27,657 nucleotides of DNA, from positions 1 through 27,657 of IMG/VR virus record IMGVR_UViG_3300042884_000347. One strand, written 5' to 3'. The notes below the pieces were generated by a model. It was not told the origin of the DNA. It was given only the letters and a program-made list of their open reading frames with translations, and ran no database searches. The position numbers and the translations under genes were made by a program. Shown here piece by piece: positions 3,747 to 24,899 of the stretch (the first letter of the stretch is position 1; each line of letters begins with the position of its first letter). Origin of the DNA: a virus.

Positions 3747-3759
3747 AATTTAATTCCTG

Positions 3760-4932
3760 TTAAGCTGTGTATGTACCAGATGTTGTGAAGGTGTGGATAG
3801 TGTTGCCGCCGGATGATGTGATAGTACCGCCGGTACCACGTTGCGCGCCTACGTAACTGATAATGACAATACCCGAGCCACCTGTGCCGGGTGGATATAC
3901 TCCCCCTGATGCGTTAGAGCTTCCAGCACCACCACCACTTCCAGAATTTGCGGGTGCCGCGGTTGCTGCGCTTGATCCATTTGAACCATTGCCACCGCCG
4001 CCTGCGCCGCCGGTTCCTGCGGTACCTTGCCCGTTGTAAGCACTACCACCGCCGCCGCCAGCACGAGTTACAGCCGAGCCGGTTATTGATGAACTCGATC
4101 CTGCGCCGCCGTTTCCTGCCACAGTGTCGCCTGTTGCGTTACCGCCTGCACTAGCAGCTCCACCGCCGCCGCCTGTTGGGTATCCGGTTGCTGGAGTTGC
4201 TCCATTACCCCCAGCAAATCCTTGTCCTGCAGTGCCTGCGCCGCCAGCTGAGTTGTTTGCTGCCCCGCCGCCGCCTGAACCACCAGATATACCCGGTTGG
4301 CCAAATCCGGGGGCTCCCGCACCACCGCCTGTTGCTGTTACTACTGAGCTAATTGATGAATTTGCCCCTGAAGTATTGATAGCACCACCAGCTCCAATTG
4401 TGACCGTGTAAGCTACTCCTGAACTAAAAGTAGCCGAGGCAGTTAAATAACCACCTGCACCGCCGCCGCCACCACCCGCGTTTGCTTGAACTGCCGGTCC
4501 TCCACCAGCTCCACCGCCAGCAATAACTAAATAAGACGCAGTGTAGGCGCCAATAGAAGCACCCTGTGAATAGCAAATCCAACCTTGCGTTGAATCAATG
4601 TACACAATAGCAACCGCTTGTCCACTTATACCCAATACTGCGTTACTTGTACTGCCATTAATTTTTAAACCATTGGGATTAACAGTGAGTGCGTTTGTGC
4701 CCCAAGTGCGAGCGTAATCAACTAGCTGAATATACTCCCCAACAGCAGGCACGGCTGGTAGTGTGACTGTGAACGCGGCGGATGTTGTGTTGCACGCGTA
4801 CGCCTCACCAGATACAGCTGTAAATCCTGTTGTTTGAACTGATTGCCATTCTGCACCACCACTCGCGGCGGTAGCTTGTACGGATCCGTCAGGAAAGGTT
4901 ATTCCGGCGCTGCCGCTTACGATTGATGTCAT
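3760..4932 (-). CDS. Glycine-rich tail fibre/adhesin protein, paralogue 2
   Basis: 390 residues. The N-terminal part differs from its paralogues: it starts TSIVSGSAGITFPDGSVQ, then a beta-rich domain (about 30-125) with TTGFTAVSGEAYACNTTSAAFTVTLP and VGEYIQLVDYA, which resembles the generic beta domains of cyanophage fibre proteins. It lacks the TTAQRP module. From YLVIAGGGAGGG (about 134) it has about 200 residues of GGGG and GGSG runs and the same C-terminal block as paralogue 1 (GIVIISYVGAQRGTGG, HTFTTSGTYTA). The variable N-terminus and conserved tip domain suggest modular exchange. A receptor-binding role is inferred from composition and neighbours. Confidence 0.8.
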   Translation of the reverse strand: MTSIVSGSAGITFPDGSVQATAASGGAEWQSVQTTGFTAVSGEAYACNTTSAAFTVTLPAVPAVGEYIQLVDYARTWGTNALTVNPNGLKINGSTSNAVLGISGQAVAIVYIDSTQGWICYSQGASIGAYTASYLVIAGGGAGGGPAVQANAGGGGGGAGGYLTASATFSSGVAYTVTIGAGGAINTSGANSSISSVVTATGGGAGAPGFGQPGISGGSGGGGAANNSAGGAGTAGQGFAGGNGATPATGYPTGGGGGAASAGGNATGDTVAGNGGAGSSSSITGSAVTRAGGGGGSAYNGQGTAGTGGAGGGGNGSNGSSAATAAPANSGSGGGAGSSNASGGVYPPGTGGSGIVIISYVGAQRGTGGTITSSGGNTIHTFTTSGTYTA

Positions 4933-4945
4933 GACTGGTCCTTAA

Positions 4946-5251
4946 TTAGGCTGCTGGAGTCGCTTCTTCTACTGCCGGTACTTCCCACAACCATGTTGTT
5001 GTGTTGAGCGTTGCGTTATCAGCTGGCTTGGGTGCGATAAATACGTCGTTTGTGCGATCGTATGTGTAGCCAATACCAGCATAGTTACCGCGCAGTGGTG
5101 TGCCACCTAGCGTGTGCTTGTTGCCGATAGTGTTGTAAGAAGTTTGAATCCACTCACCGGGAGAAGAGTCAACGAATGTTGTAAAAAATTCAGGTTCAGC
5201 CACAATCACTTGTGATACCTTACCGTCTACTACTTTAGCGAAATGTGCCAT
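4946..5251 (-). CDS. Small phage structural protein of the MAHFAKV type
   Basis: 101 residues beginning MAHFAKVVDGKVSQVIVAEP and containing the stretch SSPGEWIQTSYNT. I recognise this as a small protein found among the tail and fibre genes of cyanophages and other aquatic phages; its function is unknown. It sits between two glycine-rich fibre genes behind a good CAGGAG ribosome site. The compact beta-strand and Tyr/Trp pattern (GNYAGIGYTYDRTNDVFIAPKP) fits a small virion or fibre-associated domain. The C-terminus (AVEEATPAA) is acidic and probably disordered. A chaperone role for the neighbouring fibres cannot be excluded. Confidence 0.8.
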   Translation of the reverse strand: MAHFAKVVDGKVSQVIVAEPEFFTTFVDSSPGEWIQTSYNTIGNKHTLGGTPLRGNYAGIGYTYDRTNDVFIAPKPADNATLNTTTWLWEVPAVEEATPAA

Positions 5252-5285
5252 GTTTATTGCTCCTGTTGAAAAAATCGTTTGTTAA

Positions 5286-6314
5286 TTAGGCAGTGTAGGT
5301 GCCTGAAGTTGTAAATGTGTGGTATGTGAAGCCGCCTGATGAAGAAATCGTTCCGCCGGTACCACGCTGAGCGCCAGAATATCTAATAATTGCAACGCCG
5401 GAACCGCCTGTTGAAGAACCGCCTTGCCCAACACCAATAGCGCCACCGCCACCGCCAGTATTTGCTCCTCCTGCTGTTGCGGTGTTTCCGTTTAAGGAAG
5501 AAGCGCCATTACCACCGCCTCCCGCACCACCAGCTCCTGAACCGGGATTTGCTGTGCTTCCATTAAAAGTTGATCCACCACCACCACCAGCATAAAAAAT
5601 TCCGAGAGATTGCCAATTTGACCCAGAGCCGCCTACACCGCCAGCACTTGTTGCTGATGCTGCCCCTGATGCACCAGCACCACCACCGCCACCGCCTGCA
5701 TTACCTCCAGTACCTGTGCCTCCTGAATTTCCTTGACCGATAGTTGCCGATCCGCCAGCGCCACCGTTTTCGCCTCCGCCGCCGCCAGAGCCGCCCGAAC
5801 TTCCGGCGTTGGTAGTGGCAATGCCTCCCCGACCCCCTCCAATTGCGGTTTGCGAAAATCCCGCTGAATTATTTCCATTGGCATTTGCCGAACTTCCAGC
5901 GCCAATAGTAATTGTGTACGCAGTAGAAGGTATTACTGTAGTGCTTGCAGAAATATAACCACCAGCTCCACCACCACCAGCTCCCCCATTAGCGCCGCCG
6001 GAACCACCCGCTCCGCCGCCAGCAACAATTAAATAATCTATAGCATAGCCGGCTCCATTGGCAATTACTACCCAGCCAATTAAAGCGCCTGTATAAACTT
6101 CCATGGCACTTAACGTTGTATTCCAGCGTTGTGTTCCCACAGTCGGAGTGCCGGGGCGTTGGGCTGTAGTTCCTGTTGGCATAACTAAACCACCTGTTGT
6201 GCCGGTTGCTGCATCAATAACACCGCTGTCGGCAGTTAAAACAATATTGCCGGTTGTGTCGCCAGTTGAAACTAGCGCTGTAGTAGAAGTTGTGCCTGCG
6301 CGAATAGTACTCAT
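5286..6314 (-). CDS. Glycine-rich tail fibre/adhesin protein, paralogue 3
   Basis: 342 residues. The N-terminal region (about 1-45) has the motif TGNIVLTADSGVIDAATGTTGG. It is followed by the shared TTAQRPGTP..GTQRWNTT..AMEVYTGALIGW module (about 49-85). YLIVAGGGAGGSGG opens a glycine-rich domain of about 200 residues, and the C-terminal block is the same as in paralogues 1 and 2 (GVAIIRYSGAQRGTGG, HTFTTSGTYTA). Paralogues 1 and 3 therefore share head, body and end, while paralogue 2 has a different head. The upstream ribosome site is AAAGG. A polyglycine-II adhesin is the best guess; no enzyme motif is visible. Confidence 0.8.
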   Translation of the reverse strand: MSTIRAGTTSTTALVSTGDTTGNIVLTADSGVIDAATGTTGGLVMPTGTTAQRPGTPTVGTQRWNTTLSAMEVYTGALIGWVVIANGAGYAIDYLIVAGGGAGGSGGANGGAGGGGAGGYISASTTVIPSTAYTITIGAGSSANANGNNSAGFSQTAIGGGRGGIATTNAGSSGGSGGGGGENGGAGGSATIGQGNSGGTGTGGNAGGGGGGAGASGAASATSAGGVGGSGSNWQSLGIFYAGGGGGSTFNGSTANPGSGAGGAGGGGNGASSLNGNTATAGGANTGGGGGAIGVGQGGSSTGGSGVAIIRYSGAQRGTGGTISSSGGFTYHTFTTSGTYTA

Positions 6315-6323
6315 GTTTTACCT

Positions 6324-6836
6324 TTAAATAATAACCCAACGTGAGTCGGTTGCTACTGTAATCGTTACGCCTGAGGCGATTGTTATTGGACCAACAGAAA
6401 AACCATTCTGTAGTGTTGTAATTGTGTAGCTTGATGATGCTTGTTTGGTGTTGGTGATAATTGCACCACCAGCCTGAGCACCACCAATGCCACCCCAAAC
6501 AGAACCATTATAACCCTCAAACTGGCCGCTTGTGGTGTTAAACCGCAGCATACCAGAAGCTGGTGTTGCTGGCTGCTGTGCTGTGTTACCAACGGGCACT
6601 TTTAACGAGCCTGTTGAGTCAACAGTTAGTGTCTGGTTAGCCTCGTTCCAACTTAGGTGGGAAGCCAACACGCCTTCAGCTAAAACTTGAACAACACCCG
6701 TACTATCTTTGTAGTACAAAATGCCGTCGTTGGTGTTAAGTGCTAACTCACCGGCAATTAAGTTAATTGCTAACGGCGCTGCACTTGCTGTTGCGCTGTG
6801 GTACAGCTGGATTGGGGTTGATCCACCTGCTGCCAT
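6324..6836 (-). CDS. Fibre-related protein with GELALNTNDG and SVGPIT end motifs
   Basis: 170 residues. The N-terminus has the phage fibre motif AGELALNTNDGILYYKDSTG (about 27-46). The middle has the PATP..G.LRFNTT..QFEGYNGSVW module (about 89-115) also seen in the glycine-rich paralogues and the 934-residue fibre. The C-terminus (FSVGPITIASGVTITVATDS) closely matches the end of the 934-residue fibre. It looks like a short fibre built from the same cassettes but without the glycine-rich or collagen-like body, perhaps a trimer cap or adaptor. It starts two bases downstream of the stop-adjacent end of the large fibre gene, consistent with joint translation. Confidence 0.75.
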   Translation of the reverse strand: MAAGGSTPIQLYHSATASAAPLAINLIAGELALNTNDGILYYKDSTGVVQVLAEGVLASHLSWNEANQTLTVDSTGSLKVPVGNTAQQPATPASGMLRFNTTSGQFEGYNGSVWGGIGGAQAGGAIITNTKQASSSYTITTLQNGFSVGPITIASGVTITVATDSRWVII

Positions 6837-6837
6837 G

Positions 6838-9642
6838 TTACACCACCAACCAGCGTTGACCCGACGATACTGTTACTGTTGCACCGCTTGCTACTGTGAT
6901 TGGTCCTACTGACATGGCGTTTGTTCCTGCAGCAATTGTGTAGCTTGTTGACACTGTAGTGCCGTTTACAATCAAGCCGTTACTTGCGACAACCTCAGGA
7001 GCTACTAACTCACCAGTGGATGGTGTGTAGAGGTACTTGGCGTTGCCGGTGTAGATTGTTGAAGCAGAGCCTGATGTTGCTGTAGCAAAGAGCGGATACA
7101 GCGCAGTTGCTGTAGTCGTGTCGTTTGCAATTGTCACGCCGCCAGCTGGAGTTGTCCAAGACAGTGTGGTGCCGTTGGATGTTAACACCTGACCGTTTGT
7201 ACCAACCACTGTCAGTCCAGTACCGCCGTTCGTTGTTGCCAACGTGCCAGATAATGTTACGGCGCCGGATGTTGCTGTGCTTGGTGTAAAGCCTGTAGTG
7301 CCTGCACTAAATGTTGTTACACCACTCGCTGGAGCCGCGCCCCAAGCTGGAACGCCAGCTGTTACTGTCAGCAGTTGACCTGCTGTACCAATTGGCAACT
7401 TAGACAATGTATTGGCTGCAGAAGCATACAAAATGTCGCCGGTGGTGTATGTTGTTTGGTTTGTGCCGCCGCTGGTCTCGCCCAGTGTGCCAGCCAAAGT
7501 CACAGCGCCTGTTGTGGCTGTGCTTGGTGTCAATCCAGCCAGTGATGTCTGGAATGTTGTTACACCGCCGGGCGCGCCGTTTGCTGCTGCAGTAATACGA
7601 CCCTGAGCATCAATCGTGATGTTGGCGTTGGTGTAAGCACCGGCTGTTACGGCTGTATTGGCTAGTGCAATAGTTACCGCAGCAGAGCCGTTGTAGCTTG
7701 TGCCATCTAAGCCTGTACCAATAGTCAGCGCATTGGTTGCTGTCGCTGTTACGGTAGTAGAGCCGCCCAAACTGACAGAGCTGCCGTTAATAGTGATTGC
7801 GCTGTTTGTCAATCCACTGTTAGGGATTGTGGCATTGATCTGGCTTGGTGCAATGCTAATTGTAGTATTGCTTGCAGCTGTTAATTGACCCTGAGCGTTA
7901 ACTGTGTATGTTGGTACTGAACTTGCAGAACCATAAGCACCAGCTGTTACCGCTGTGTTGGCAATGCTAAATTGCGTGCCAGTTAATGATAAGCCCGTGC
8001 CAGCTGAGTAAATTTGAGCTGCACTAATTTGGACAAATGTAATATTAGTTGTGCCAAAGACAATCGGGCCAATTGTGTTGCAGGTATATGTCTCGCCCGC
8101 GCCCGTGGCTCCTTGCTGAACAAAGAATGTTGAACCTTCGCTTAGTGTAGTTGGGCCAGCAAATCCGTACGTATCGGTGTCAGAAGAACGGGTTAAAACC
8201 CAGTTTGTTGAGCCAGATCCCACGTCTGTAACAACGTATACGCCGTTTTGAGTTTGTGTTGTTTGTGTGTAGACCAAAACGCGGTCATTAACCGCAACGG
8301 TAACACCGTCAATTACCAAGACGGCCTGTGTACCTGCGTTGGTTAATGTTGCACCCACACCTACGCCAGCGCCGCCGGGTTGGTTGTATGTTGCGTTTAA
8401 ATTAATTGGTGACTCAACACGCACGGGTGCATGAAAATGAATTCCAGAAGATACCAAAGTGTCAACGTACTGCTTGGTTGCTAACTGGAAGTTCGATACC
8501 GGGTCTTGCGTTACTGTAACGCTTGTCAAACCGGCTGGTGCTAGTTCTGTGCCGCCCAGCGCAATGTTAGTAGTACCTAACGTAATTGAGCTGTTTGTCA
8601 GCGAGCTGTTAGCAATGTTGCTTAGTGTGTTTGTTGAGCCGTTAATGGATACGCTTGTTAACGTGCCGCCGGTTACTGTCTTGCCAGTAAATGTCAATGC
8701 TGTTGGTAGGCTTAATGTTACCGCAGTGCCTACCGTGGTTGCAGTAATTTCGTTAGCTGTACCGCTAACTGCGCTAATTGCGCCGATGCTGCTTGGTGTG
8801 ATGCTTACGTTAGCCGCTGCAGTAAGTTGTCCCTGAGCGTTAACTGTGAATGTTGGTACAGCTGATGATGAGCCGTAGCTGCCTGCAGTAACTGCCGTGT
8901 TGGCAATACTGATTGTGCCGGTAGAAATAATTGGACCGCCAGTAAGGCCGGTTCCAGTTCCTACAGAAGTTACACCTGAACCTAAAGCAAACGCTGTCCA
9001 AAATCCAGCGGAGTAGCCTTCAAATAATCCGGTATCTGTGTTGTAACGGAAAAGACCGTTTACTGGTCCAATTGCAGAGCGCTCTAGTGTAGTCCCCTTT
9101 GGAACTAAAACGGCGCCAGTTCCGGGAAGAACCGGGTCTGATGCAATCGAAATAACCGGCGCTGTTGATCCGTTTGTTACAACAATTTGGTTTGCCGTGC
9201 CAGCTACAACAGACAAGTAAGTTGGGAGTGTATCCCAAGTTGTGTCAAAGTTAGTGCTTGACGCTTTCTTTAAATACTGACCGGCTGTTCCGCCTGCTGC
9301 TACGCCGGGGCCTGTTGCACCGGTTGCGCCTGTAGCTCCAGTTGCACCTACGTCACCGCGTGGAATGACAAAGTCAAACATGGCTGTTTGTAGTGAGCCA
9401 ACGTTTGTTACACTTGCATTTGTGCCGGGTGCACCAGTTACTGTGGAGTTAACTTGGATTGTTGCGCCGGGACCTGTTGGGCCTGTTGGGCCTTGAGGAC
9501 CAACGGGGCCCGCTGGACCGCCTAGGTTAGCAATGTCTTGTAACTGGGTCTGCTTGGTAACGCCGTTTTGAACAACAACCGTAAGCTCATCGCCTGTTAG
9601 CGCTGTTGCCACTCCTAGTTGTGATATACTTTGATCGGCCAT
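6838..9642 (-). CDS. Large collagen-like tail fibre
   Basis: 934 residues, the largest fibre. The N-terminal segment (MADQSISQLGVATALTGDEL, to about 42) resembles the start of the 199-residue neighbour and is probably the virion anchor. Collagen-like Gly-X-Y repeats follow at about 43-58 (GPAGPVGPQGPTGPTGPG) and about 95-112 (GDVGATGATGATGATGPG), suited to a trimeric shaft. A cassette FRYNTDTGLFEGYSAGFW lies near 200. The segment AVTAG(S/A)YGS with PT(F/Y)TVNAQGQLTAA recurs, with a variant AVTAGAYTNANITIDAQGRITAAAN. A globular domain of about 150 residues in the middle (ATKQYVDTLVSSGIHFHAPV, NDRVLVYTQTTQTQNGVYVV) is typical of phage fibres. The C-terminus (MSVGPITVASGATVTVSSGQ) resembles a trimerisation tip. 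The role is host attachment. Confidence 0.88.
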   Translation of the reverse strand: MADQSISQLGVATALTGDELTVVVQNGVTKQTQLQDIANLGGPAGPVGPQGPTGPTGPGATIQVNSTVTGAPGTNASVTNVGSLQTAMFDFVIPRGDVGATGATGATGATGPGVAAGGTAGQYLKKASSTNFDTTWDTLPTYLSVVAGTANQIVVTNGSTAPVISIASDPVLPGTGAVLVPKGTTLERSAIGPVNGLFRYNTDTGLFEGYSAGFWTAFALGSGVTSVGTGTGLTGGPIISTGTISIANTAVTAGSYGSSSAVPTFTVNAQGQLTAAANVSITPSSIGAISAVSGTANEITATTVGTAVTLSLPTALTFTGKTVTGGTLTSVSINGSTNTLSNIANSSLTNSSITLGTTNIALGGTELAPAGLTSVTVTQDPVSNFQLATKQYVDTLVSSGIHFHAPVRVESPINLNATYNQPGGAGVGVGATLTNAGTQAVLVIDGVTVAVNDRVLVYTQTTQTQNGVYVVTDVGSGSTNWVLTRSSDTDTYGFAGPTTLSEGSTFFVQQGATGAGETYTCNTIGPIVFGTTNITFVQISAAQIYSAGTGLSLTGTQFSIANTAVTAGAYGSASSVPTYTVNAQGQLTAASNTTISIAPSQINATIPNSGLTNSAITINGSSVSLGGSTTVTATATNALTIGTGLDGTSYNGSAAVTIALANTAVTAGAYTNANITIDAQGRITAAANGAPGGVTTFQTSLAGLTPSTATTGAVTLAGTLGETSGGTNQTTYTTGDILYASAANTLSKLPIGTAGQLLTVTAGVPAWGAAPASGVTTFSAGTTGFTPSTATSGAVTLSGTLATTNGGTGLTVVGTNGQVLTSNGTTLSWTTPAGGVTIANDTTTATALYPLFATATSGSASTIYTGNAKYLYTPSTGELVAPEVVASNGLIVNGTTVSTSYTIAAGTNAMSVGPITVASGATVTVSSGQRWLVV

Positions 9643-11899: not shown

Positions 11900-12817
11900 T
11901 TACAAACCTGCAGTACCATAAATGTTACGTGCATCGTGCCAGCCGGTCGCATAGCGCTCGGTAGCCTTGTAACGCATGCTGTCTGTCTCGAAATCGCCTT
12001 CCATGGACTTCTCCATTGGACGACGCATAACGAGCATTAAGCCGTTTTCTGCATCAGTCTGAACCCACCAAGCCTTGCTGGAGCTCAAACGAGTCACAAC
12101 ATGGGTACCCTTAGGCAACATGCCTGTGGATTTGATTGGGTTGAGGTCATTATCAGCTGTACCCGAACGCAGTACGGATTTCAAGATAACTTCAGCTTGG
12201 AATTCGAGTGCAGGAGGTACTACCAATTGCTCAGCCTTGAGACGAATACGCTTACCATTGTTGTCAATAGCGCCACGGATTTGAATCAACATCTGCTCAA
12301 CAGAAGTTTGGCTCAAAGAAGCAGCTGTAGACAATTGGTTAGAGTAAGTCTGACCGTTTGCGATTGGGTGTGCTGTGTTGATCAAAGTTACGCCATCGCC
12401 ACCAACATAGCCAGCTGTGAACGCAAAGTTCAACAGGTTAGCACAGAGGGTTTCCTTGGTTTCAATCATGGATTGAGCCAAGTGCTTAGCGAAAGTGCTG
12501 CCGATACGGATGTGATCGCCGTCTTCCATCAATACTTTGGTCAAAGCATAAGCCAAGCCATAGATTTGATAGATGAAACGGGTGATGTACAAAGTACCAC
12601 CTTGATCGTAGCTAACTGGAGTGCCGTCAGGCATTGCAGGAGCTGCGTTCATACCGAAGAGCATTACTTCTTCGTGGTAGTTACGTGGAATACCTTGGAT
12701 CTGTTCTACAAATCCTTTCCACTCGTCGGCACGCTGTTCGTAAACACCGTCAAAGACTTCGTTGATAATCGGTTCGACTACCGCACGAAAGTCCGTACTA
12801 CGCATTGGAGTTGCCAT
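11900..12817 (-). CDS. Major capsid protein, HK97-fold type
   Basis: 305 residues forming the procapsid shell. The sequence has the features of HK97-fold phage capsid proteins. There is an N-terminal helical region (FRAVVEPIINEVFDGVYEQ) and a long spine-helix-like stretch (HIRIGSTFAKHLAQSMIETKE). A P-domain follows (SVEQMLIQIRGAIDNNGKRI, then LVVPPALEFQAEVILKS), and the C-terminal part includes NGLMLVMRRPMEKSMEGDFE and RYATGWHDARNIYG. It is followed by a strong terminator and preceded by the scaffold-like and structural genes, the usual head-module place. Length is normal for a small-capsid type without the cleaved delta domain. Confidence 0.92.
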   Translation of the reverse strand: MATPMRSTDFRAVVEPIINEVFDGVYEQRADEWKGFVEQIQGIPRNYHEEVMLFGMNAAPAMPDGTPVSYDQGGTLYITRFIYQIYGLAYALTKVLMEDGDHIRIGSTFAKHLAQSMIETKETLCANLLNFAFTAGYVGGDGVTLINTAHPIANGQTYSNQLSTAASLSQTSVEQMLIQIRGAIDNNGKRIRLKAEQLVVPPALEFQAEVILKSVLRSGTADNDLNPIKSTGMLPKGTHVVTRLSSSKAWWVQTDAENGLMLVMRRPMEKSMEGDFETDSMRYKATERYATGWHDARNIYGTAGL

Positions 12818-15120: not shown

Positions 15121-15561
15121 TTAATCTATAAACGCTTTCATCTTCTGCGCATACTCAAACGACTTAATGCGAGAGATGATTTCACGAGCTTGCAGTGTGA
15201 TGAATACAACGGGAGAACCATCATCATCTGGCTGCACAACAAAACGGTCACCGCCGTACTTGATAGTACGTACTAGATCGCCTTCTTTACACCAAGGGCC
15301 TTCTGGCCATGGAGATAAATCTGCGTCTAGGTTACGGTATGCCAGTGGTCCAACCTGCACCACTTTTGCAACTGTTTCGTTAAATCGTAACGTTTGTCTG
15401 GTCTCATCAACTAGGATGATTCCACCTTTACTGGTTGACTTCTCGCGCCTTAGCTGTACTAAAACACGGTCTCCAGCTACCTCAATACCGGTGTCGATTG
15501 GGGGAAAACATTCTTCCTCTGATCGTGTATCCGGCTCTTCATTGCCTTTTATATCAAACAC
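15121..15561 (-). CDS. GroES-like co-chaperonin
   Basis: 146 residues. After an acidic 25-residue extension the Cpn10 fold is recognisable: GDRVLVQLRREKSTSKGGII (about 30-49) matches the GroES start and its mobile loop, which contacts GroEL through a Gly-Gly-hydrophobic triplet (here GGIIL). ETVAKVVQVGP matches the central strand, and WCKEGDLVRTIKYGGDRFVV matches the later strands. Phage co-chaperonins such as T4 gp31 replace host GroES so that GroEL can fold the large capsid protein. Placement between portal and scaffold/capsid genes supports that role. It is longer than GroES (about 97 residues) because of extensions at both ends and an insert around YRNLDADLSPWPEG. Confidence 0.82.
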   Translation of the reverse strand: MFDIKGNEEPDTRSEEECFPPIDTGIEVAGDRVLVQLRREKSTSKGGIILVDETRQTLRFNETVAKVVQVGPLAYRNLDADLSPWPEGPWCKEGDLVRTIKYGGDRFVVQPDDDGSPVVFITLQAREIISRIKSFEYAQKMKAFID

Positions 15562-15815: not shown

Positions 15816-16025
15816 TTAATAAAAATTGCCGCCGCCGATGTCTTTTAGGTTCTTATCTGGGCCTACTTTGCTTGAACGGGCTGGCTTGCCTTTAACGGCG
15901 TTGTTAGGACGCTTGGAACCAGAAGCTCCTGTGTCCAGCTTTTTATTCTCTGGGCCGCCGCCTGAAGACAGCTTACCAGTTTCTTGGTATGTTTGACGAA
16001 AGCCTTGTAAGTTGTTATCGGCCAT
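15816..16025 (-). CDS. Small basic, disordered phage protein
   Basis: 69 residues (MADNNLQGFRQTYQETGKLS to NLKDIGGGNFY), rich in Gly, Lys, Ser and Asn and probably unfolded. Its start overlaps the portal stop by one base (TAATG), so it is likely made by coupled translation. I recognise no family. The position directly after the portal suggests a small internal or connector-associated protein. Confidence 0.65.
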   Translation of the reverse strand: MADNNLQGFRQTYQETGKLSSGGGPENKKLDTGASGSKRPNNAVKGKPARSSKVGPDKNLKDIGGGNFY

Positions 16026-18829
16026 TATATTGCTCCTGTTGGTTTGATGGGTTGTGCTGCTAATTGTTGTAATGTTTGTTGATGCATTTGGTCGTTTTGC
16101 TGCATTTTTGCTGCGTGGTCTAGTTGAAACTTAGTCTGTTCTGCTTGTTGCATAAACGCCTGCCTTTCAATTTCCAACCCATGTTGCGTTAATTCTTTTT
16201 GTGCTGCTTGTGAGGCTTGCATTGCCGTTTGGTTTTGTTCGTGGACCAAGGCCATCTGGTCGGCTGTTAGGCCGGCTTGAGCGGCTATAGCTGCCACGCG
16301 CTCACGCGATGAGTTGTTGATGTCGGCCAGAGCAATTTGTGTCGCATTTTTGTTGGAGTCAATATCCGACTGGGTGCTGTACTTGGTTTCCAATTCAGCC
16401 ACTTGGCGCTGCAATTCTGCAATACGCAGCTGGTAGTCTTGCTTAGACTTCTCAGTGTCAATCTGCATACGTGCCTGTGACTCAGCTTGTTTACGCTGTG
16501 TCTCAGCCATTTGAGTCTTGAGGATAACTTGAGCAGTTGGATCAGACTCAGCCATTTGCTGCTGCCGGGCTTGTTGTGCTTGCTGTACTTTTTGCGCCAG
16601 CTGTTGGATCTCTGGTAAAAACGCCTGCATGGACTGCTGTGAGTCTTGGGTTACCATGTCCGAAGCCAATGCCAACGCCTGTTGCGCTTCAATATCCAGC
16701 GGCTTTTCTTGGTTCAATTCCAAAGCATCGCGCCCGCCTGCTGCCTGTGCTACGTACGCGCGCATGGATTGCAAGTAGTGTAATGTTAAGTGTTGTTTGA
16801 TGTGCTCTAATGCGTGTGGGGCAAAAGACGGGCCAATAACCGGGCTGTTACCATACGCAGGATCTCTAGCATAGGCTAGGTGAATCTTAATGTGCGATAT
16901 GTGATCTTGGTCTGGGTACGCAGCTGCTGGGCGGCCCATAGTCATGGAGACGTTCTCTAGCGCAGGGTTAGACTCTTTAGCACCCAATGGGTTTGGTAAA
17001 ACCTCATCAATTGCAGGGATCTTTAACTGGGTCAATACACGGCGATACACTGCTCTAGCATCAAACATGCCCGGAGGCGCTGAGGTAGCCATCTGTAAGA
17101 GGGCTTGGTTCTGAGCAACACGCTGTGTCTCAGAGAAAATGTTTGGATCTGATACTGGGCGTACGTCGTTGTTATAAGCAAAGTCACGAACTTGGATTTC
17201 AGAGCCGGACTGGTTGTCCATCTCGTCTAAGTACCAGTGATTTAAGCGAGATACGATTGCCAGTGATTTGGCTTGGCTGCGATGCAGGCGTGCATGGATT
17301 GCTGAGAATACCTTAGCACCTTGCTCAATCAATGCCTGCGCTGTACCAACAGGCATGTTGTTATTTGCTTGGCCAATCTTTTCTTCGGCTGTGCTAACTA
17401 CGCCTTTTGCTGCGTCTGTCAACCAACCGAGTAAGTTAAACAATACAGAAGATGGTTGGTTAAACGGCATTGGCATTGCCAACTTACGGACGTCGTCTAC
17501 TCCGGGCGCGCCTTCAATCTCAATTACTTGTGTCGGCTCGATTCGGTCAGATTGTCCACCAATTCGTCCACCTTTGAGTTTAAGAAGTGTTTGGCTGTTA
17601 TTAATGTGAGCAGCATCCAATAGGGCGCGCAAAGAACCAGTAAGAGCAGCGGAGAGACCACCAATAAGGTGAGGTAGCCCAATTGCGTAAGCACCCCGCC
17701 AAGGAATGAATTTGAATTCAACATACCATTCGAGTTTTGTGAGTTTTTCATCATTGCACTCCCAGTTACGATACAGCGCCAAAACTTCAGACGTTGTTTC
17801 GTCAATAGTCAGGATGTATGGCGCGCGGGCACCATCAGTCTCGTTGTCCTCATCGAGGCGTAAGAAACAAGTGATCTCATAAATACGGCGCATTCCATCA
17901 ACGTTTGTAGATGGATCTTCTTTGCCTTCAATTTTGTTGTTGGCTTTTTGTGCGCCAGTTTGGTCTGTAAGCGGCGCGTCAGATGTGTATGTGCTGTCAA
18001 TGTCGCGGTAAATACCAGCGGCAACACGCTGCAGGAACGTGTCTTCTGTAATGTCTTGAACTTCAGTTACACGCTGCGAGGTGTAGAAGTTAGTAGACGA
18101 GTAAGGTAAGAGGATGTTGTCAATTGGTACCCACTCGCAAGTAGGACGCTTTTGCTCTGAATCAAAACGCCACTTCAGGAACTGCGAACCACCTAGCGGT
18201 AGTTGTGTGAGTAACTGCTCCATCTCATCGCGGTACTCTGCAATCTGTTCTGTAAGCTGCCAGTTAAGGAAGTCAACCTTACGAGCTGCAGTTTCTTCTT
18301 TAAGACGATCTGCTTGGCCCTTAACGTTAGAGCGAACAATGCCATCGGGTGGCAGTAATTCTTTAGAGGAAGACGCAGCGAAGTCAACGCATGCCTCTGC
18401 CATAATAGGGTGGACGACTTTGGAAGCTCCGTCGAACGTGGCTCCTCCGGGCGCGTCCTTGCCGAGTCCAGTGCGACGAAGACCTTCTTCGTACTGTTTG
18501 TCTCGTTGTTTGCGCGATTCCTTATCAACATCAATAAGGTCTAAATATTCGTTGGCTAAAGAACTGAGGATGTCTTCATCAAACTCTTCGGCCAAGTTAG
18601 CATAAAATTCTGGCGCTTCTTTAGGTGATGCCTTTGGTATGTAGTTAACAACCACAGAGCCATCTTCTTGCTCAATGATCTCTTCTTCTACATCTCCGGG
18701 TTCTAAACCCAAAGCCTCTTCGTAATAATCCATCTCCGCATCTTGTTGTGCGGCGTCTTTTAAATCCTCGTCTCTTTCGAGACCGGGTAAATTAGCGCCC
18801 ATTTGCGTTGGTAATATTGGATTTGCCAT
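16025..18829 (-). CDS. Portal protein
   Basis: 934 residues. The portal forms the dodecameric ring through which TerL pumps DNA and to which the tail attaches. It directly follows TerL and one small gene and overlaps it by TAATG. After an acidic N-terminus (about 1-80), the body has features of the large podovirus-type portals: FDGASKVVHPIMAEACVDFA, PLGGSQFLKWRF, TSQRVTEVQDITEDTFLQRV, FKFIPWRGAYAIGLPHLIGG and LLDAAHINNSQTLLKLKGGR. From about residue 700 the protein is a Gln/Ala-rich coiled coil (ALASDMVTQDSQQSMQAFLP, RIAELQRQVAELETKYSTQ) that resembles the barrel extension of long portals. Confidence 0.9.
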   Translation of the reverse strand: MANPILPTQMGANLPGLERDEDLKDAAQQDAEMDYYEEALGLEPGDVEEEIIEQEDGSVVVNYIPKASPKEAPEFYANLAEEFDEDILSSLANEYLDLIDVDKESRKQRDKQYEEGLRRTGLGKDAPGGATFDGASKVVHPIMAEACVDFAASSSKELLPPDGIVRSNVKGQADRLKEETAARKVDFLNWQLTEQIAEYRDEMEQLLTQLPLGGSQFLKWRFDSEQKRPTCEWVPIDNILLPYSSTNFYTSQRVTEVQDITEDTFLQRVAAGIYRDIDSTYTSDAPLTDQTGAQKANNKIEGKEDPSTNVDGMRRIYEITCFLRLDEDNETDGARAPYILTIDETTSEVLALYRNWECNDEKLTKLEWYVEFKFIPWRGAYAIGLPHLIGGLSAALTGSLRALLDAAHINNSQTLLKLKGGRIGGQSDRIEPTQVIEIEGAPGVDDVRKLAMPMPFNQPSSVLFNLLGWLTDAAKGVVSTAEEKIGQANNNMPVGTAQALIEQGAKVFSAIHARLHRSQAKSLAIVSRLNHWYLDEMDNQSGSEIQVRDFAYNNDVRPVSDPNIFSETQRVAQNQALLQMATSAPPGMFDARAVYRRVLTQLKIPAIDEVLPNPLGAKESNPALENVSMTMGRPAAAYPDQDHISHIKIHLAYARDPAYGNSPVIGPSFAPHALEHIKQHLTLHYLQSMRAYVAQAAGGRDALELNQEKPLDIEAQQALALASDMVTQDSQQSMQAFLPEIQQLAQKVQQAQQARQQQMAESDPTAQVILKTQMAETQRKQAESQARMQIDTEKSKQDYQLRIAELQRQVAELETKYSTQSDIDSNKNATQIALADINNSSRERVAAIAAQAGLTADQMALVHEQNQTAMQASQAAQKELTQHGLEIERQAFMQQAEQTKFQLDHAAKMQQNDQMHQQTLQQLAAQPIKPTGAI

Positions 18830-19488: not shown

Positions 19489-20931
19489 TTATTGGCTATA
19501 TGGGTTACTAAACTTCCTAGAAGCGTCATCATCTGCGTAATCATAGTCCCTTGCAGGCAATAGATCAAGCTGCAACCATCCAGAGTCCCTCAGAACGCGT
19601 AGGGCTTGGCTGAGGCTGTCTACGTAGTCGTCATGACCCCCAGCCTCAGGAAACGAACAAACCTGCCTCATGAACCGTTTAGTCCAGTCAGCAAACTCAC
19701 CGTTTTTAGAAGCGTCTTCCGGAATAAACACTTTACCTTTGGCAACTAAAGGGGCCACAATGTTGATACGCTGGATTTTATCAGCTCTTCCCGGGTTGTA
19801 TCCACGGACCGGAACGCCAGCTCCCTGCAACTCTTGGATCAGGGAAATACCAGCGGACTTATCTTCCATGAGTATCAGGTCGGCCTTTTTGCCTTTACCG
19901 AACTCATTGTCCGCACCGTAGACTACTTCTTTAAAATCATCAATTACTTTGCGGCGCAGCTCTGGGTACGATAAATGCGAGTCCCATGCATCTAACAGGA
20001 TTACCGCAGTGCCCGCGTCGGTTCTTTCAAACACACCCCAGACCGTACAAGCCGTAGGGTCATTGACTGTCTTTTCGCTGGTCGCCGGGTCATACGAGGC
20101 AATCACGTATTCCAGTGTCGGGGTTGGTTTGTCTGCCGGCCACATCTTAAACATCTTGCGCTTGATGATACCCGCGGCTTCCGGGTCAAGGATCTGACCA
20201 TAAATCTCTTGGCTGCCAATGTCGGTGCCTTCATACGTCTCAAGCTGCTTAAAGAACGTCTCTGAGAGGTTGGCCCGGTTGTCATAGGAGCTGGCGTTGG
20301 CTACATAGACATCGCCACCTACCTTGCCTTCGTTGAGGTCAACGATAAGCTCTTTGGGTTTTGGTGTGGTGGTAATAATCTGTTGCACTCGAGGGATTCT
20401 CGGGTCCTTAAGACGGAGGGTAAACTGTACTCCGTCGTAGGCATCGTCGATGTAATCAAACGCACACAGCTCGTCAAACCAAGCCCCATGGTATTGCTTA
20501 CCACGATAGCGTTCTGGCTCTGAGGCTGGGATTCCTTGGATGATAGATCCGTTGGTGAGGGTAATCTCAAAGAGGGACTTGTTGTAATCTCGGATAAGTG
20601 ACGAGGGGATGATATTGAGAAGTCCACTGTCTCCCTCAAAACAAGTTGCACGTATATCATTTGAGGTAGGGGCTGTGACCAACCAACGAGTGTTATCGTA
20701 CTTCCAAGCACGAATGCCAATCCAATGACTAGCCGTATGCGTCTTGCCCGATCCTCGACCAGCCAACATAAGAAACGTATCATATTCTCCATCGTCTGGC
20801 TCTCTTTGGTGTGGGAGTGCCTGTAATTGCCATTTGACCTGCCATATGGCAGCGTCAAGTTGTTGTTTAGGCCAGTGTTTGTGTGATTCTGCAAACTTCT
20901 TTAAAGTTAGCTCTTGTTTTGGTGTTAGCAT
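19489..20931 (-). CDS. terL: Terminase large subunit (TerL)
   Basis: 480 residues, an ATP-driven DNA packaging motor with a nuclease that cuts concatemers. Walker A is AGRGSGKT (57-64), Walker B is GAWFDEL (149-155), and ITTTPKP is the following coupling motif. The RNase H-like nuclease domain starts at ASYDPATSEKTVNDPTACTV (first Asp), continues with LILMEDKSAG and ends with the motif GGHDDYVDSLSQAL. Length and motif order are normal, so the protein looks complete and uninterrupted. The start ATG overlaps the last codons of the Hint gene by 7 nt (ACATGCTAACA), which suggests coupling. A small terminase subunit is not evident; the unknown gene at 21880-22188 is the only upstream candidate. 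Confidence 0.96.
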   Translation of the reverse strand: MLTPKQELTLKKFAESHKHWPKQQLDAAIWQVKWQLQALPHQREPDDGEYDTFLMLAGRGSGKTHTASHWIGIRAWKYDNTRWLVTAPTSNDIRATCFEGDSGLLNIIPSSLIRDYNKSLFEITLTNGSIIQGIPASEPERYRGKQYHGAWFDELCAFDYIDDAYDGVQFTLRLKDPRIPRVQQIITTTPKPKELIVDLNEGKVGGDVYVANASSYDNRANLSETFFKQLETYEGTDIGSQEIYGQILDPEAAGIIKRKMFKMWPADKPTPTLEYVIASYDPATSEKTVNDPTACTVWGVFERTDAGTAVILLDAWDSHLSYPELRRKVIDDFKEVVYGADNEFGKGKKADLILMEDKSAGISLIQELQGAGVPVRGYNPGRADKIQRINIVAPLVAKGKVFIPEDASKNGEFADWTKRFMRQVCSFPEAGGHDDYVDSLSQALRVLRDSGWLQLDLLPARDYDYADDDASRKFSNPYSQ

Positions 20932-21917
20932 GTTGGTATGAAGCCCTCTCCTACAAGGATTGTGTTATCAAGGGCCGTTGTTTCAATATGGATACACAAT
21001 TGGGCTGGAATTGGACTGACTTTAGTAACATACCTGCGGCCGTATTGGATTTTTACGGGCGGAGAGAACTGATTTGGGATTAAAGGCAGCCGGGACTTAA
21101 AGAAAACAGTGTAGTCCTTCTTGTGTGCGTCGCTAATCAGCTGGGTTTTACATCCAATCGACTCCGCTAGGAGCTGAACACGGCGCGTAGTGTCATAATT
21201 TCTGGAAGAAAACCTAAAAGTGTCCCGTTTTTTGTTGTACTGCCTTGATTTTGAACACATTATTCCAGAAAGTAACTCTTGACGCTGCTCCGGGGAGGCA
21301 AGTAGGTAGTTATTCGGGATATTTTTGGGGATGTTTGGTACGAGCTGCCGGGAAATGCTAGGCTCAATACTAAAATCACGCTCGCCTGTGGTTAACAAAG
21401 AGCCGGGTATAACCTTGTACCCATGGTCTCTAAACTTTTCGTGCACAAAATCCGATGTGCCGGGCGCGGCGGCCAGTCTTCCAGTTGATCTACGGGCAAA
21501 AAACCACAGACCGAATAGGAATGGGGGCACTGGTAGGTCTTTGTGGGGGAGTTGCAGGGGGTGCGCCGTGGGGACAGAGATAGTCTTGCGGTTCCTTTTG
21601 TTAAGGAGCGGGGTATCTCTTAGCTCTTCCGCAGTAAGGGGTTTTAGTGGGCGCCTAAACTGAAGTTTGCTTTTGTACGATTGAAGTCGGCTACGGTACT
21701 TAGCCGTCTCTACAGGCAAACAGAGCATGGCATCGCCAGTAACAGTGAGGTAATCATTGAACATGACCTCATAGCACTGTATGCCTTGATATGCCTGCGC
21801 CATTTTAACCTGAACAATGTTTCCTGTCTGGTCAAATACATAGTCACCCACTTCTAGCTTTGATGCGGGTTTCCAATAGTCAAGCGTTAGTATCTTTGTA
21901 TCTGCGGTTATCGCCAT
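20925..21917 (-). CDS. Degenerate stand-alone intein-like (Hint + LAGLIDADG) protein
   Basis: 330 residues with the full layout of an intein. Block A is AITADTKILTLDYWKPASKL, with Ala where the splicing nucleophile Cys/Ser belongs. Block B is VTGDAMLCL (Ala63 for the usual His). Endonuclease motif 1, PFLFGLWFFARRS (132-144), and motif 2, LLSGIMCSKS (215-224), have both lost their acidic residues. The final block, CIHIETT..ILVGEGFIPTC, has Cys-stop in place of His-Asn. It therefore cannot splice or cut DNA by the known mechanisms, yet the frame is unbroken. It overlaps the upstream gene by 38 nt and terL by 7 nt. It may be a domesticated intein relic; what it does now is unknown. Confidence 0.82.
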   Translation of the reverse strand: MAITADTKILTLDYWKPASKLEVGDYVFDQTGNIVQVKMAQAYQGIQCYEVMFNDYLTVTGDAMLCLPVETAKYRSRLQSYKSKLQFRRPLKPLTAEELRDTPLLNKRNRKTISVPTAHPLQLPHKDLPVPPFLFGLWFFARRSTGRLAAAPGTSDFVHEKFRDHGYKVIPGSLLTTGERDFSIEPSISRQLVPNIPKNIPNNYLLASPEQRQELLSGIMCSKSRQYNKKRDTFRFSSRNYDTTRRVQLLAESIGCKTQLISDAHKKDYTVFFKSRLPLIPNQFSPPVKIQYGRRYVTKVSPIPAQLCIHIETTALDNTILVGEGFIPTC

Positions 21918-22249: not shown

Positions 22250-22363
22250 TGACAGGGTGTACAGGGTTGCGAGGCTTATTTAGTCTTTCCATACTTTATT
22301 TATTTTTTTTAAAAAAAATATAAAAAAGAGTAAAAAGGGGTGACAACCCTGTACACCCTGTCA
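22250..22363. repeat. Perfect 20-bp inverted repeat around an AT-rich core
   Basis: TGACAGGGTGTACAGGGTTG at 22250-22269 is exactly reverse-complemented at 22344-22363. The 74-bp spacer contains TATTTTTTTTAAAAAAAATA and further A-runs. Each arm itself repeats ACAGGGT twice. The arrangement suggests paired protein-binding sites beside a DNA-unwinding element, or a large cruciform/transcript hairpin. Confidence 0.85.
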
Positions 22364-23140: not shown

Positions 23141-23342
23141 GTTGACGGGATGTCAACGACACGCAGACCAATTACCACGGCCTAGCCCCACGACACGGGG
23201 CCCGAGGTGACTAAGTACCAGCCTCGTTAAACGTGTGGCGATCCCTAGATATGTACCCACAGAGACTAGGCGCTGGATAAGAGGCAATGCTCGAGACCAG
23301 CACATCAGATAGTAATGCTCAGAGCGCGTTATGAGGGCGCTC
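23141..23342 (+). promoter_or_regulatory. Hairpin-rich leader before the plus-strand genes
   Basis: A chain of possible stems in RNA sense: GTTGAC/GTCAAC (23141-23157, perfect 6 bp), GCCCC/GGGGC (23185-23201), CGAGG/CCTCG (23203-23226), CCTAG/CTAGG (23244-23270), GCTGG/CCAGC (23272-23301) and GAGCGC/GCGCTC (23322-23342, perfect 6 bp). The last contains GTTATG, also found in stem I loops of two hammerheads. No known riboswitch or ribozyme core was recognised. It would form the 5' leader of the early mRNA if transcription begins upstream. Confidence 0.4.
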
Positions 23343-23373
23343 GAGGCAGTACTAACCAACAGGAGATAACACC

Positions 23374-23655
23374 ATGTCACGTTTTGAACTAGAAGTCGCT
23401 AAACGCTGGGTTAATACAGACGGCCGCACCGCATCGGTATACGGTTCGTGCCCGTATGTATCAGACGCAGACAAAGCAAACTGGACGATCGTTAACGTCG
23501 GATACACCATCCGCGATAACAGGACAAACACAGTGGGTATGGGATGCAAACCATACGAATCCAAATACGATGCGGCATTGATCGTGACCAACCTCAATAC
23601 CTTAGTTGAACAAGGTAAACCAGCAGTAATCAACCCAGCATGGTTACAAGGGTAA
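23374..23655 (+). CDS. First gene of the plus-strand array, unknown
   Basis: 93 residues: MSRFELEVAKRWVNTDGRTA, then WTIVNVGYTIRDNRTNTVGM. It is a compact mixed alpha/beta protein of unrecognised family with a strong CAGGAG ribosome site. It opens the plus-strand unit, and its stop codon is followed after 3 nt by hammerhead 1. Small unrecognised proteins at the start of the early region of phages often modify or block host functions; that is inference here. Confidence 0.75.
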   Translation: MSRFELEVAKRWVNTDGRTASVYGSCPYVSDADKANWTIVNVGYTIRDNRTNTVGMGCKPYESKYDAALIVTNLNTLVEQGKPAVINPAWLQG

Positions 23656-23658
23656 GCA

Positions 23659-23711
23659 GGTCGAAACAGTCGAGAGACTGTATGTACGTTATGCGTGCAC
23701 TGATGATGACC
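23659..23711 (+). ncRNA. Type II hammerhead ribozyme 1
   Basis: Order: stem II strand GGUC (23659-23662), GAA (23663-23665), stem III A-CAGUC-GAGA-GACUG-U (23666-23681), A17 (23682), stem I UGUACG-UUAUG-CGUGCA (23683-23699), CUGAUGA (23700-23706), one extra U (23707), closing strand GACC (23708-23711). Both ends lie in stem II, so the form is type II. Predicted cleavage is after GUA at 23682. It lies 3 nt after a stop codon. The extra U next to stem II departs from the consensus and may slow it. Confidence 0.85.
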
Positions 23712-23733
23712 AACACCAAACAGGAGATACACC

Positions 23734-23931
23734 ATGTCAAACGAATTCACTCAAAAAGAGCGCGACCTCCACGACCTTATGTGGGAGGCTGACGCGCTGG
23801 CCACCCAGCTATTGGAGGCAACACGCAACACGCAGGGTTTTTATGACACCATGCACCCACTGGCAGGCACCGTGGGCGCCTTAGCATCACGCATCGACGA
23901 TATGCTCGAGCGTATGCAGTTGTCCAAGTAA
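23734..23931 (+). CDS. Small helical protein, unknown
   Basis: 65 residues (MSNEFTQKERDLHDLMWEAD to SRIDDMLERMQLSK), almost fully helical and amphipathic, probably a coiled-coil or helical-bundle protein. No family is recognised. The ribosome site is CAGGAG. It is flanked by hammerhead 1 upstream and hammerhead 2, which begins 4 nt after its stop. Predicted cleavage would give it its own mRNA with a structured 5' end. Confidence 0.75.
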   Translation: MSNEFTQKERDLHDLMWEADALATQLLEATRNTQGFYDTMHPLAGTVGALASRIDDMLERMQLSK

Positions 23932-23935
23932 TACA

Positions 23936-23985
23936 GATCGAAACCGCCTCGGCGGTCTGCCAGTCGTGCTGGCACTGATGAGATC
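23936..23985 (+). ncRNA. Type II hammerhead ribozyme 2
   Basis: Stem II GAUC (23936-23939) pairs with GAUC (23982-23985). GAA is at 23940-23942; stem III A-CCGC-CUCG-GCGG-U spans 23943-23956; C17 is 23957; stem I UGCCAG-UCGUG-CUGGCA spans 23958-23974; CUGAUGA is 23975-23981. All core bases are canonical with the classic GUC cleavage triplet (cut after 23957). Every stem differs in sequence from the other copies while pairing is kept. Confidence 0.92.
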
Positions 23986-24005
23986 AACCCACTAGGAGAT
24001 ATATC

Positions 24006-24149
24006 TTGGACATCCAAGCTAAACAAAAAGTAATCGAACAAGCCCGTGAACTAATCCGCTCAGTATGGACGGATGACCTCGACAAAGATACCCAGCGTGA
24101 GATCGAGCGTATATACGACGACTTACAATATATTTTTGACGAAGAGTAG
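24006..24149 (+). CDS. Very small acidic protein with TTG start
   Basis: 47 residues from TTG at 24006 behind TAGGAG: (M)DIQAKQKVIEQARELIRSV, then DTQREIERIYDDLQYIFDEE. Charged and helical; no family recognised. The strong ribosome site, clean frame and placement between hammerheads 2 and 3, with the stop 4 nt before hammerhead 3, support it as a real gene despite its size and rare start codon. Confidence 0.75.
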   Translation: MDIQAKQKVIEQARELIRSVWTDDLDKDTQREIERIYDDLQYIFDEE

Positions 24150-24153
24150 TACA

Positions 24154-24205
24154 GGTCGAAACCAGCTCAGGCTGGTCTGCACGTTATGCGTGCACTGATG
24201 AGATC
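24154..24205 (+). ncRNA. Type II hammerhead ribozyme 3
   Basis: Stem II GGUC (24154-24157) pairs with GAUC (24202-24205; one G-U pair). GAA 24158-24160; stem III A-CCAGC-UCAG-GCUGG-U 24161-24176; C17 24177; stem I UGCACG-UUAUG-CGUGCA 24178-24194; CUGAUGA 24195-24201. The core is canonical with a GUC triplet, cleavage predicted after 24177. It begins 4 nt after the TAG of the preceding gene. Confidence 0.92.
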
Positions 24206-24229
24206 ACACACAACACACAGGAGGTTATT

Positions 24230-24388
24230 TTGAACGAACGCAAATCAGTAGCAATATGGTGGCATGAGGTAGACCTCATGGGCAATTTTAGATGGGCGCT
24301 GGAGTACAAACTAACGTGGTCTGAATACTTAGAGTATTCCAAAAGCGTAAGCGGTGAGGGCAATAAATGGAAAGCGGTGATCATATGA
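24230..24388 (+). CDS. Small Trp/Tyr-rich protein with TTG start
   Basis: 52 residues from TTG at 24230 with an ideal AGGAGG ribosome site: (M)NERKSVAIWWHEVDLMGNF, then WALEYKLTWSEYLEYSKSVS. No family recognised. The stop overlaps the next gene's ATG (ATGA at 24385), so the two are probably translated together. It follows hammerhead 3, whose cleavage would create the 5' end of this two-gene mRNA. Confidence 0.75.
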   Translation: MNERKSVAIWWHEVDLMGNFRWALEYKLTWSEYLEYSKSVSGEGNKWKAVII

Positions 24389-24606
24389 TCACCACAGGCA
24401 AAACAGAGTACAGCGTGCAACTGAGCTGGAAGACGTACGAGACCCTTGGCAACAAGGGCACGCTGGCACTCAAGCGTGAGCACAACTTCAAAGAGCGCAC
24501 GTTCAGAGCCAAGGCAAAGGCAGAGCAGTTTGCAGAGGCCGAGCGTGAGCGCACGGGGCTGGAGATCAGGGTGCAGGAATGCACACCGATCTATGGCTTA
24601 CTGTAG
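24385..24606 (+). CDS. Small basic helical protein, unknown
   Basis: 73 residues: MITTGKTEYSVQLSWKTYET, then FRAKAKAEQFAEAERERTGL, ending IYGLL. I chose the ATG overlapping the previous stop (ATGA), a pattern repeated in this array. A start six codons upstream (24367) has a GTGAGG site and is a fair alternative. Early strands, a long charged helix and a final strand suggest a compact alpha/beta fold. No family is recognised. Hammerhead 4 begins 4 nt after its stop. Confidence 0.72.
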   Translation: MITTGKTEYSVQLSWKTYETLGNKGTLALKREHNFKERTFRAKAKAEQFAEAERERTGLEIRVQECTPIYGLL

Positions 24607-24610
24607 TACA

Positions 24611-24663
24611 GGTCGAAACAGCCGAGAGGCTGTATGCACGTTAGGCGTGCACTGATGATGACC
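24611..24663 (+). ncRNA. Type II hammerhead ribozyme 4
   Basis: Stem II GGUC (24611-24614)/GACC (24660-24663); GAA 24615-24617; stem III A-CAGCC-GAGA-GGCUG-U 24618-24633; A17 24634; stem I UGCACG-UUAGG-CGUGCA 24635-24651; CUGAUGA 24652-24658; extra U 24659. It matches ribozyme 1 in the GUA triplet, GAGA loop and extra U, with compensatory changes in stems I and III. Predicted cleavage after 24634. Confidence 0.85.
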
Positions 24664-24683: not shown

Positions 24684-24899
24684 ATGAAACACATAGACAT
24701 GTTCCCAAGTGCAAAAACATTACTTAAAGGAAAAAGATACCGCGCAACATACCGCGACCCAGTAGACGGCACAATAACCCATTACTGGGAGTTTGTAGAC
24801 AACAACATGCGTCAAGCTAGAAACCGCGCCCAAGACAGCAGATTGCAACGTCGGGACGGCCTTGTTGACGTGCTAGACAAAGTGGAGGAGTTGACATGA
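24684..24899 (+). CDS. Small basic protein, unknown
   Basis: 71 residues: MKHIDMFPSAKTLLKGKRYR, then ITHYWEFVDNNMRQARNRAQ. Basic with a beta N-terminal half and a helical C-terminal half; no family recognised. It is the last gene led by a hammerhead (ribozyme 4); the ribosome site is TAGGAGG. From here on the genes are joined by ATGA overlaps instead. Its stop overlaps the next start at 24896. Confidence 0.75.
   Translation: MKHIDMFPSAKTLLKGKRYRATYRDPVDGTITHYWEFVDNNMRQARNRAQDSRLQRRDGLVDVLDKVEELT

Follow-up and report, generated by a model that had tools for sequence, protein, structure and literature searches.

Type II hammerhead ribozymes are known to form arrays that flank genes in prophages (Perreault et al., 2011; PMC3088659). 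The described arrays include a triple array in Agrobacterium tumefaciens and those of Azorhizobium and Clostridium scindens; three arrays were cut efficiently in vitro, with all of their ribozymes active, and one was cut in E. coli (PMC3088659). A dedicated processing of long phage RNAs into mRNAs of single-gene or operon length was already proposed in 2011, and a pseudoknot between loop I and the 3′ tail was found in many type II hammerheads (PMC3088659). In the case of HHphage, a hammerhead of the haloviruses HF1 and HF2, the 5′ end of a transcript was mapped within three nucleotides of the cut site (PMC3088659). A review published in 2017 regarded the role of prokaryotic hammerheads as open and described them as flanking small, non-conserved, phage-linked ORFs (PMC6155905).

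The DNA analysed here (the window) is an IMG/VR virus record, IMGVR_UViG_3300042884_000347, of 27,657 bases from a freshwater phage. Its structural genes read leftward, and a block of small genes, in whose first gaps four hammerheads are located, reads rightward from 23374. The features are as follows; in the hammerheads, the slash marks the predicted cleavage point, and lower-case letters mark loops or the extra U.

689-1243, leftward: endolysin
11900-12817, leftward: major head protein
15121-15561, leftward: GroES-like protein
16025-18829, leftward: portal
19489-20931, leftward: terminase large subunit
23374-23655, plus strand: gene 1 of the rightward operon, 93 aa
23659-23711, plus strand: hammerhead copy 1, GGTC GAAA CAGTC-gaga-GACTG TA / TGTACG-ttatg-CGTGCA CTGATGA u GACC, predicted cleavage after 23682
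23734-23931, plus strand: gene separating copies 1 and 2, 65 aa
23936-23985, plus strand: hammerhead copy 2, GATC GAAA CCGC-ctcg-GCGG TC / TGCCAG-tcgtg-CTGGCA CTGATGA GATC, predicted cleavage after 23957
24006-24149, plus strand: gene separating copies 2 and 3, 47 aa, TTG start
24154-24205, plus strand: hammerhead copy 3, GGTC GAAA CCAGC-tcag-GCTGG TC / TGCACG-ttatg-CGTGCA CTGATGA GATC, predicted cleavage after 24177
24230-24388, plus strand: first of two genes separating copies 3 and 4, 52 aa, TTG start
24385-24606, plus strand: second of two genes separating copies 3 and 4, 73 aa, overlapping the preceding gene via ATGA
24611-24663, plus strand: hammerhead copy 4, GGTC GAAA CAGCC-gaga-GGCTG TA / TGCACG-ttagg-CGTGCA CTGATGA u GACC, predicted cleavage after 24634
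24684-24899, plus strand: gene directly behind copy 4, 71 aa

The genes downstream of the 71-aa gene are mostly tightly spaced and have no hammerhead between them. The operon is probably an early one, as judged from the gene order and from a sigma-70-like protein (Sigma70_r2, 5e-8) to which it runs on in relatives; the window stops short of this gene. Several other features of the record were observed. A separate minus-strand ORF (20925-21917), directly before and overlapping the terminase gene, matches only intein-containing terminase profiles (phrog_15, E 2.6e-11), and its counterpart in relatives is likewise a separate gene. The noncoding divergent region of 1.1 kb contains an inverted repeat at 22250-22362 with arms of about 19 nt (GACAGGGTGTACAGGGTTG). 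On the minus strand, 2682-9642 contains several large ORFs, glycine-rich or collagen-like, which have related C-termini (GTGGT..SSGG..HTFTTSGTYTA) and are probably tail fibre genes.

The locus resembles the prophage arrays in that several hammerheads flank single genes or short blocks of genes whose identities are not constant (PMC3088659), and several ribozymes lie between the genes of one operon on its sense strand, which is the arrangement that marks a phage hammerhead array. Unlike the prophage arrays, the present ones belong to a whole clade of free freshwater phages and occupy one syntenic place, where they use only the first gaps of the operon, keep nearly fixed distances from the stop codon and to the next start codon, lack the pseudoknot, optionally carry an extra U after A9 and are accompanied by a second conserved leader hairpin. 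The window copies share with the Rfam family RF02276 (Hammerhead_II) the permutation open at stem II, the core and the order of parts, but differ from it by a short, fixed stem I with a 5-nt loop, a stem II of four pairs (GGTC/GACC), the missing pseudoknot and, in two copies, the extra U. HHphage is similarly placed close upstream of the start codon of an early gene, but it is a single copy with core insertions near C3, has an archaeal host and forms no intergenic array. The array arrangement itself is already known from other phages; here it recurs with unusual regularity across a clade.

An earlier, sequence-only reading proposed that the four elements are type II hammerhead ribozymes; their core, fold and covariation and their conserved position in related phages give this proposal strong support. 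A structural descriptor consisting of stem II, GAAA, stem III closed by A15.1-U16.1, UH, stem I, CUGANGA and stem II′ matched the four copies and nothing more on both strands of the window, and gave no match in 50 mononucleotide shuffles of it. The order stem II, GAAA, stem III, NUH, stem I, CUGANGA, stem II′ is found in all four copies, with stems I and III closed by loops and stem II open, and the minimum-energy fold of each copy alone is the three-stem hammerhead secondary structure. The cleavage triplet is GUA in copies 1 and 4 and GUC in copies 2 and 3. In copies 1 and 4, A9 is separated from the first pair of stem II by an additional U (CUGAUGA-U-GACC), which the earlier reading had not mentioned.

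A covariance model built from the relatives alone, with the window sequences excluded, gave 71.8, 63.2, 67.1 and 75.5 bits for copies 1, 2, 3 and 4 (E from 5e-18 to 9e-15), and the next-best match in the window reached 11.6 bits. Descriptor, folds and covariance model agree with the coordinates, parts and cleavage points originally assigned to the four hammerheads, and the distances, read as 3-4 nt after a stop codon and 20-24 nt before a start codon, were measured as 3, 4, 4 and 4 nt for copies 1-4 and as 20-24 nt, two of the starts being TTG. A search with the Rfam type II model, suggested in the same reading, had a divided outcome: no match to RF02276 was obtained in the window at the gathering score (37 bits), which is a curated threshold and not a chemical definition, and at E≤10 copy 2 was the sole match (31.9 bits, E=0.0013, full model aligned). 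Other copies of the clade likewise score merely 28-32 bits, and the window copies fall below the Rfam threshold because they diverge from the RF02276 consensus, the core being present. The lack of a covariance-model hit in any copy had been named as an outcome that would speak against the assignment; the model built from relatives matches all four.

By terminase, at least 434 relatives of the phage are present in IMG/VR, and the best 80 were fetched. Examination of 82 terminase loci gave 53 hammerheads in 27 of them, with one to four in each phage at one syntenic place, and all 53 are on the early strand, opposite to the terminase gene and 2.2-3.9 kb upstream of its start. No hammerhead was found outside this place in the 23 full contigs searched. 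When the core letters alone were demanded and pairing was ignored, the early strand gave 54 matches, 53 of which also pass the full descriptor, and the opposite strand gave none. Many terminase relatives are wholly without a hammerhead. Of the 36 loci whose upstream DNA exceeds 4.5 kb, 19 carry hammerheads; the hammerhead-free loci of this group, which mostly open the operon with different genes, show no trace by a loose descriptor or a covariance model. Among named phages, the closest by terminase (Caulobacter phage RW, MW202545) are distant, being 43-54% identical, and have no hammerheads. Neither the early region nor a ribozyme segment has nucleotide similarity to any of 50,697 phage records. 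Three contigs from one beta-proteobacterial MAG bin (L340, L341 and L342) encode terminases 86% identical to that of the window phage and have no hammerheads; a beta-proteobacterial host for the window phage is only hinted at by this bin.

Among 42 distinct copies of the clade, the catalytic core letters are invariant, H17 is C (34 copies) or A (8) and N7 is U (35) or C (7), and the extra U is present in 15. Stem III occurs in 18 versions, four of them in the window, and is always fully matched; stem I occurs in 13 versions, which are fully matched save for single wobbles in a few copies. In an alignment of 37 distinct copies, 99.7% of the pair cells form standard pairs and double changes are found at 11 of the 16 pairs, 97 cells in total. 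The number of doubly compensated cells was equalled in none of 500 shuffles, and sliding the partner strand by one column abolishes the signal.

The pseudoknot between loop I and the 3′ tail is a majority feature of type II hammerheads that speeds many of them and is not required. In the clade, the mean best loop I-tail pairing is 2.53 bp, compared with 2.55 for shuffled partners; in a wider set of at least 356 non-redundant phage hammerheads, a non-random sample from pattern scans aimed in part at the clade, the pairing is in excess (4.16 versus 3.87 when shuffled, sd 0.05). Single-nucleotide inserts after A9 in the wider set are U in 62 of 62 cases. Both the first base of loop I (U) and the first base behind stem II (A) are constant in 37 of 37 clade copies, and these two may perhaps form a non-canonical contact. 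The missing pseudoknot, the extra U in the core and the GUA triplet of copies 1 and 4 imply that cutting may be slow.

The placement of the ribozymes is nearly uniform. The ribozyme begins 2-4 nt past a stop codon in 51 of the 53 clade copies; the distance from its end to a start codon was measured for 51 copies and is 12-25 nt in 49 of them. Ribozyme-bearing gaps have a median length of 73 nt (quartiles 71-76, n=49), whereas the later, ribozyme-free gaps of the same operons have a median of -1 nt (n=317), that is, the genes overlap. Hammerheads are confined to gaps 1-5 in operons with up to 29 genes in view. In the wider, non-random set, 266 of the at least 356 hammerheads begin -5 to +6 nt from a stop codon; for intergenic positions drawn at random from the same strand, the proportion is 9.1%. 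The terminating ribosome occupies about a dozen nucleotides beyond the stop codon, so it would mask GAAA and the 5′ strand of stem II while it terminates, and translation could, on this model, gate cutting by the ribozyme.

The genes separated by the ribozymes are small and different in each phage, and their proteins have no credible match in Pfam or PHROG, save phrog_11722 in one relative. Relatives of the 65-aa gene between copies 1 and 2 adjoin hammerheads in other phages. Members of another family, c2 (about 102 aa), immediately follow a ribozyme in only some of the phages; because the same gene occurs with or without a preceding ribozyme among related phages, no individual gene depends on processing.

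On the basis of these sequence features, cis-cleaving type II hammerheads in the promoter-proximal gaps probably process the RNA of the early operon into short mRNAs. The operon would be transcribed straight through the four ribozymes; the 20-24 nt behind each ribozyme are too short for a promoter, so that the sites would have to be read through from upstream. Each ribozyme would fold on emergence of its 3′ strand and then cut after H17. From the geometry of the window gaps, in which 26-28 nt separate the stop codon from the cut and 48-52 nt separate the cut from the next start codon, the upstream piece would acquire a 3′ end 26-28 nt past its stop codon, carrying the stem III hairpin and a 2′,3′-cyclic phosphate, and the downstream piece would begin with a 5′-OH and the stem I hairpin 48-52 nt ahead of its start codon, and the ribosome site would follow closely after this hairpin. 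The first few genes would end up on short mRNAs that have structured ends and are no longer coupled to one another, and the remaining operon would persist as one densely packed message. Hairpin-bearing ends may protect the mRNAs from RNase E, and the lifetime, translation and output of the separated messages may be altered. The interpretation given in the sequence-only reading is partly supported: the proposed cutting of a polycistronic RNA into units fits both the anatomy of the locus and the published precedent (PMC3088659).

The same regular spacing could suit ribozymes that are real and were selected as insulators, that is, as structured spacers that break coupling and give the ribosome site a constant context, with cleavage slow or incidental, similar to the synthetic ribozyme insulators such as RiboJ. 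The constant 73-nt ribozyme gaps in operons whose other gaps mostly overlap (median -1 nt) would be expected of such spacers, and the features that may slow cutting, namely the missing pseudoknot, the extra U and GUA in two copies, point the same way. However, CUGANGA, GAAA and H17 would be superfluous for a mere spacer, and in the 42 distinct copies it is the core that is invariant, with H17 just A or C, while stem III is free to vary; this explanation is unlikely. Preservation of the ribozymes as relics, once active and retained by chance or descent, is extremely improbable: the Rfam score lies under the gathering threshold, but degenerate copies were not found in the array-less relatives, where hammerheads are either intact or absent, and heavy compensatory change has occurred alongside an invariant core.

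Selection at the level of DNA has also to be considered, because the content of genes between the ribozymes varies while the position stays, and seven pairs of copies are nearly identical although both neighbouring genes differ. The ribozyme repeats could thus be boundaries for the exchange of small early genes by homologous recombination. The compensatory changes in the stems reveal selection on RNA, however, and the copies within one phage are not homogenised, as the four stem III sequences of the window illustrate. No clean end of a cassette is visible either, because ribozyme similarity correlates to about the same degree with the gene upstream and the gene downstream. A role as recombination boundaries is very unlikely. 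The processing of early RNA by cis-cleavage is open to comparison and to reporters, since genes occur with and without a ribozyme, at fixed spacing and in promoter-proximal gaps only; the clade, whose dozens of related phages have between 0 and 4 ribozymes in this operon, constitutes an unusually clean test case.

Upstream of gene 1, the leader of the operon contains two further hairpins, as follows.

about 23203-23239, plus strand: leader hairpin X, CGAGG-TGACTAAGTACCAG-CCTCG plus GTGTGGC
23308-23355, plus strand: leader hairpin L, irregular, 18 nt ahead of the first start codon

Both are conserved structured RNAs without an Rfam match that are associated with hammerhead operons. The pattern of L was found in 56 stretches of viral contigs in a completed scan, usually 13-27 nt ahead of a start codon; among 45 distinct contexts, only one with more than 2 kb of downstream room is without same-strand hammerheads. 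L covaries, with 98.7% of cells paired and double changes at seven pairs (0 of 500 shuffles), and its internal loop is nearly constant, being AUGCUCA/GAGGCAG in most. One relative, L325, has two copies of L, at 7657-7706 and 7888-7937. The second copy lies between genes 1 and 2, with a stop codon within its first bases and the next start codon 15 nt behind it, and occupies the slot that is used by a hammerhead elsewhere. X, likewise in the leader of the operon, has a constant loop (UGACUAAGUACCAG) and stems that change in a compensated way (for example, L215 at 1912 and L222 at 4909), and has a conserved GUGGC segment behind it. In 8 of 48 relatives, compared with 0.2 expected, a near-consensus sigma-70 promoter precedes L by 125-225 nt, which would place L and X of those relatives in the 5′ leader; the window's own leader has no sigma-70 promoter above chance.

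L and X could serve as processing signals, antitermination RNAs or protein-binding sites, or could be new ribozymes. A bolder reading is that each of the first genes carries an interchangeable RNA processing module close ahead of its ribosome site, in which scheme hammerheads serve the later genes, L, as a new self-cleaving RNA or RNase signal, serves gene 1 and in L325 also gene 2, and X is a second new leader RNA; this is a tentative and rather doubtful suggestion. The twister sister, pistol and hatchet ribozyme classes were discovered via such neighbourhoods, and for this reason L and X merit a test of their own. A search for known ribozymes and riboswitches in the leader gave no plausible Rfam match, at E≤10 in the window and at E≤1 in ten relatives; the Rfam microRNA matches obtained correspond to long inverted repeats of the window and the relatives and are false. 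The leaders look like mosaics of exchangeable structured RNAs. In L209, L216, L264 and others, alternative leader modules are located directly upstream of the leader hairpin; these include a multibranch element of about 150 nt with a closing stem of about 19 pairs and a GGGGGAGC..CAGAACC element.
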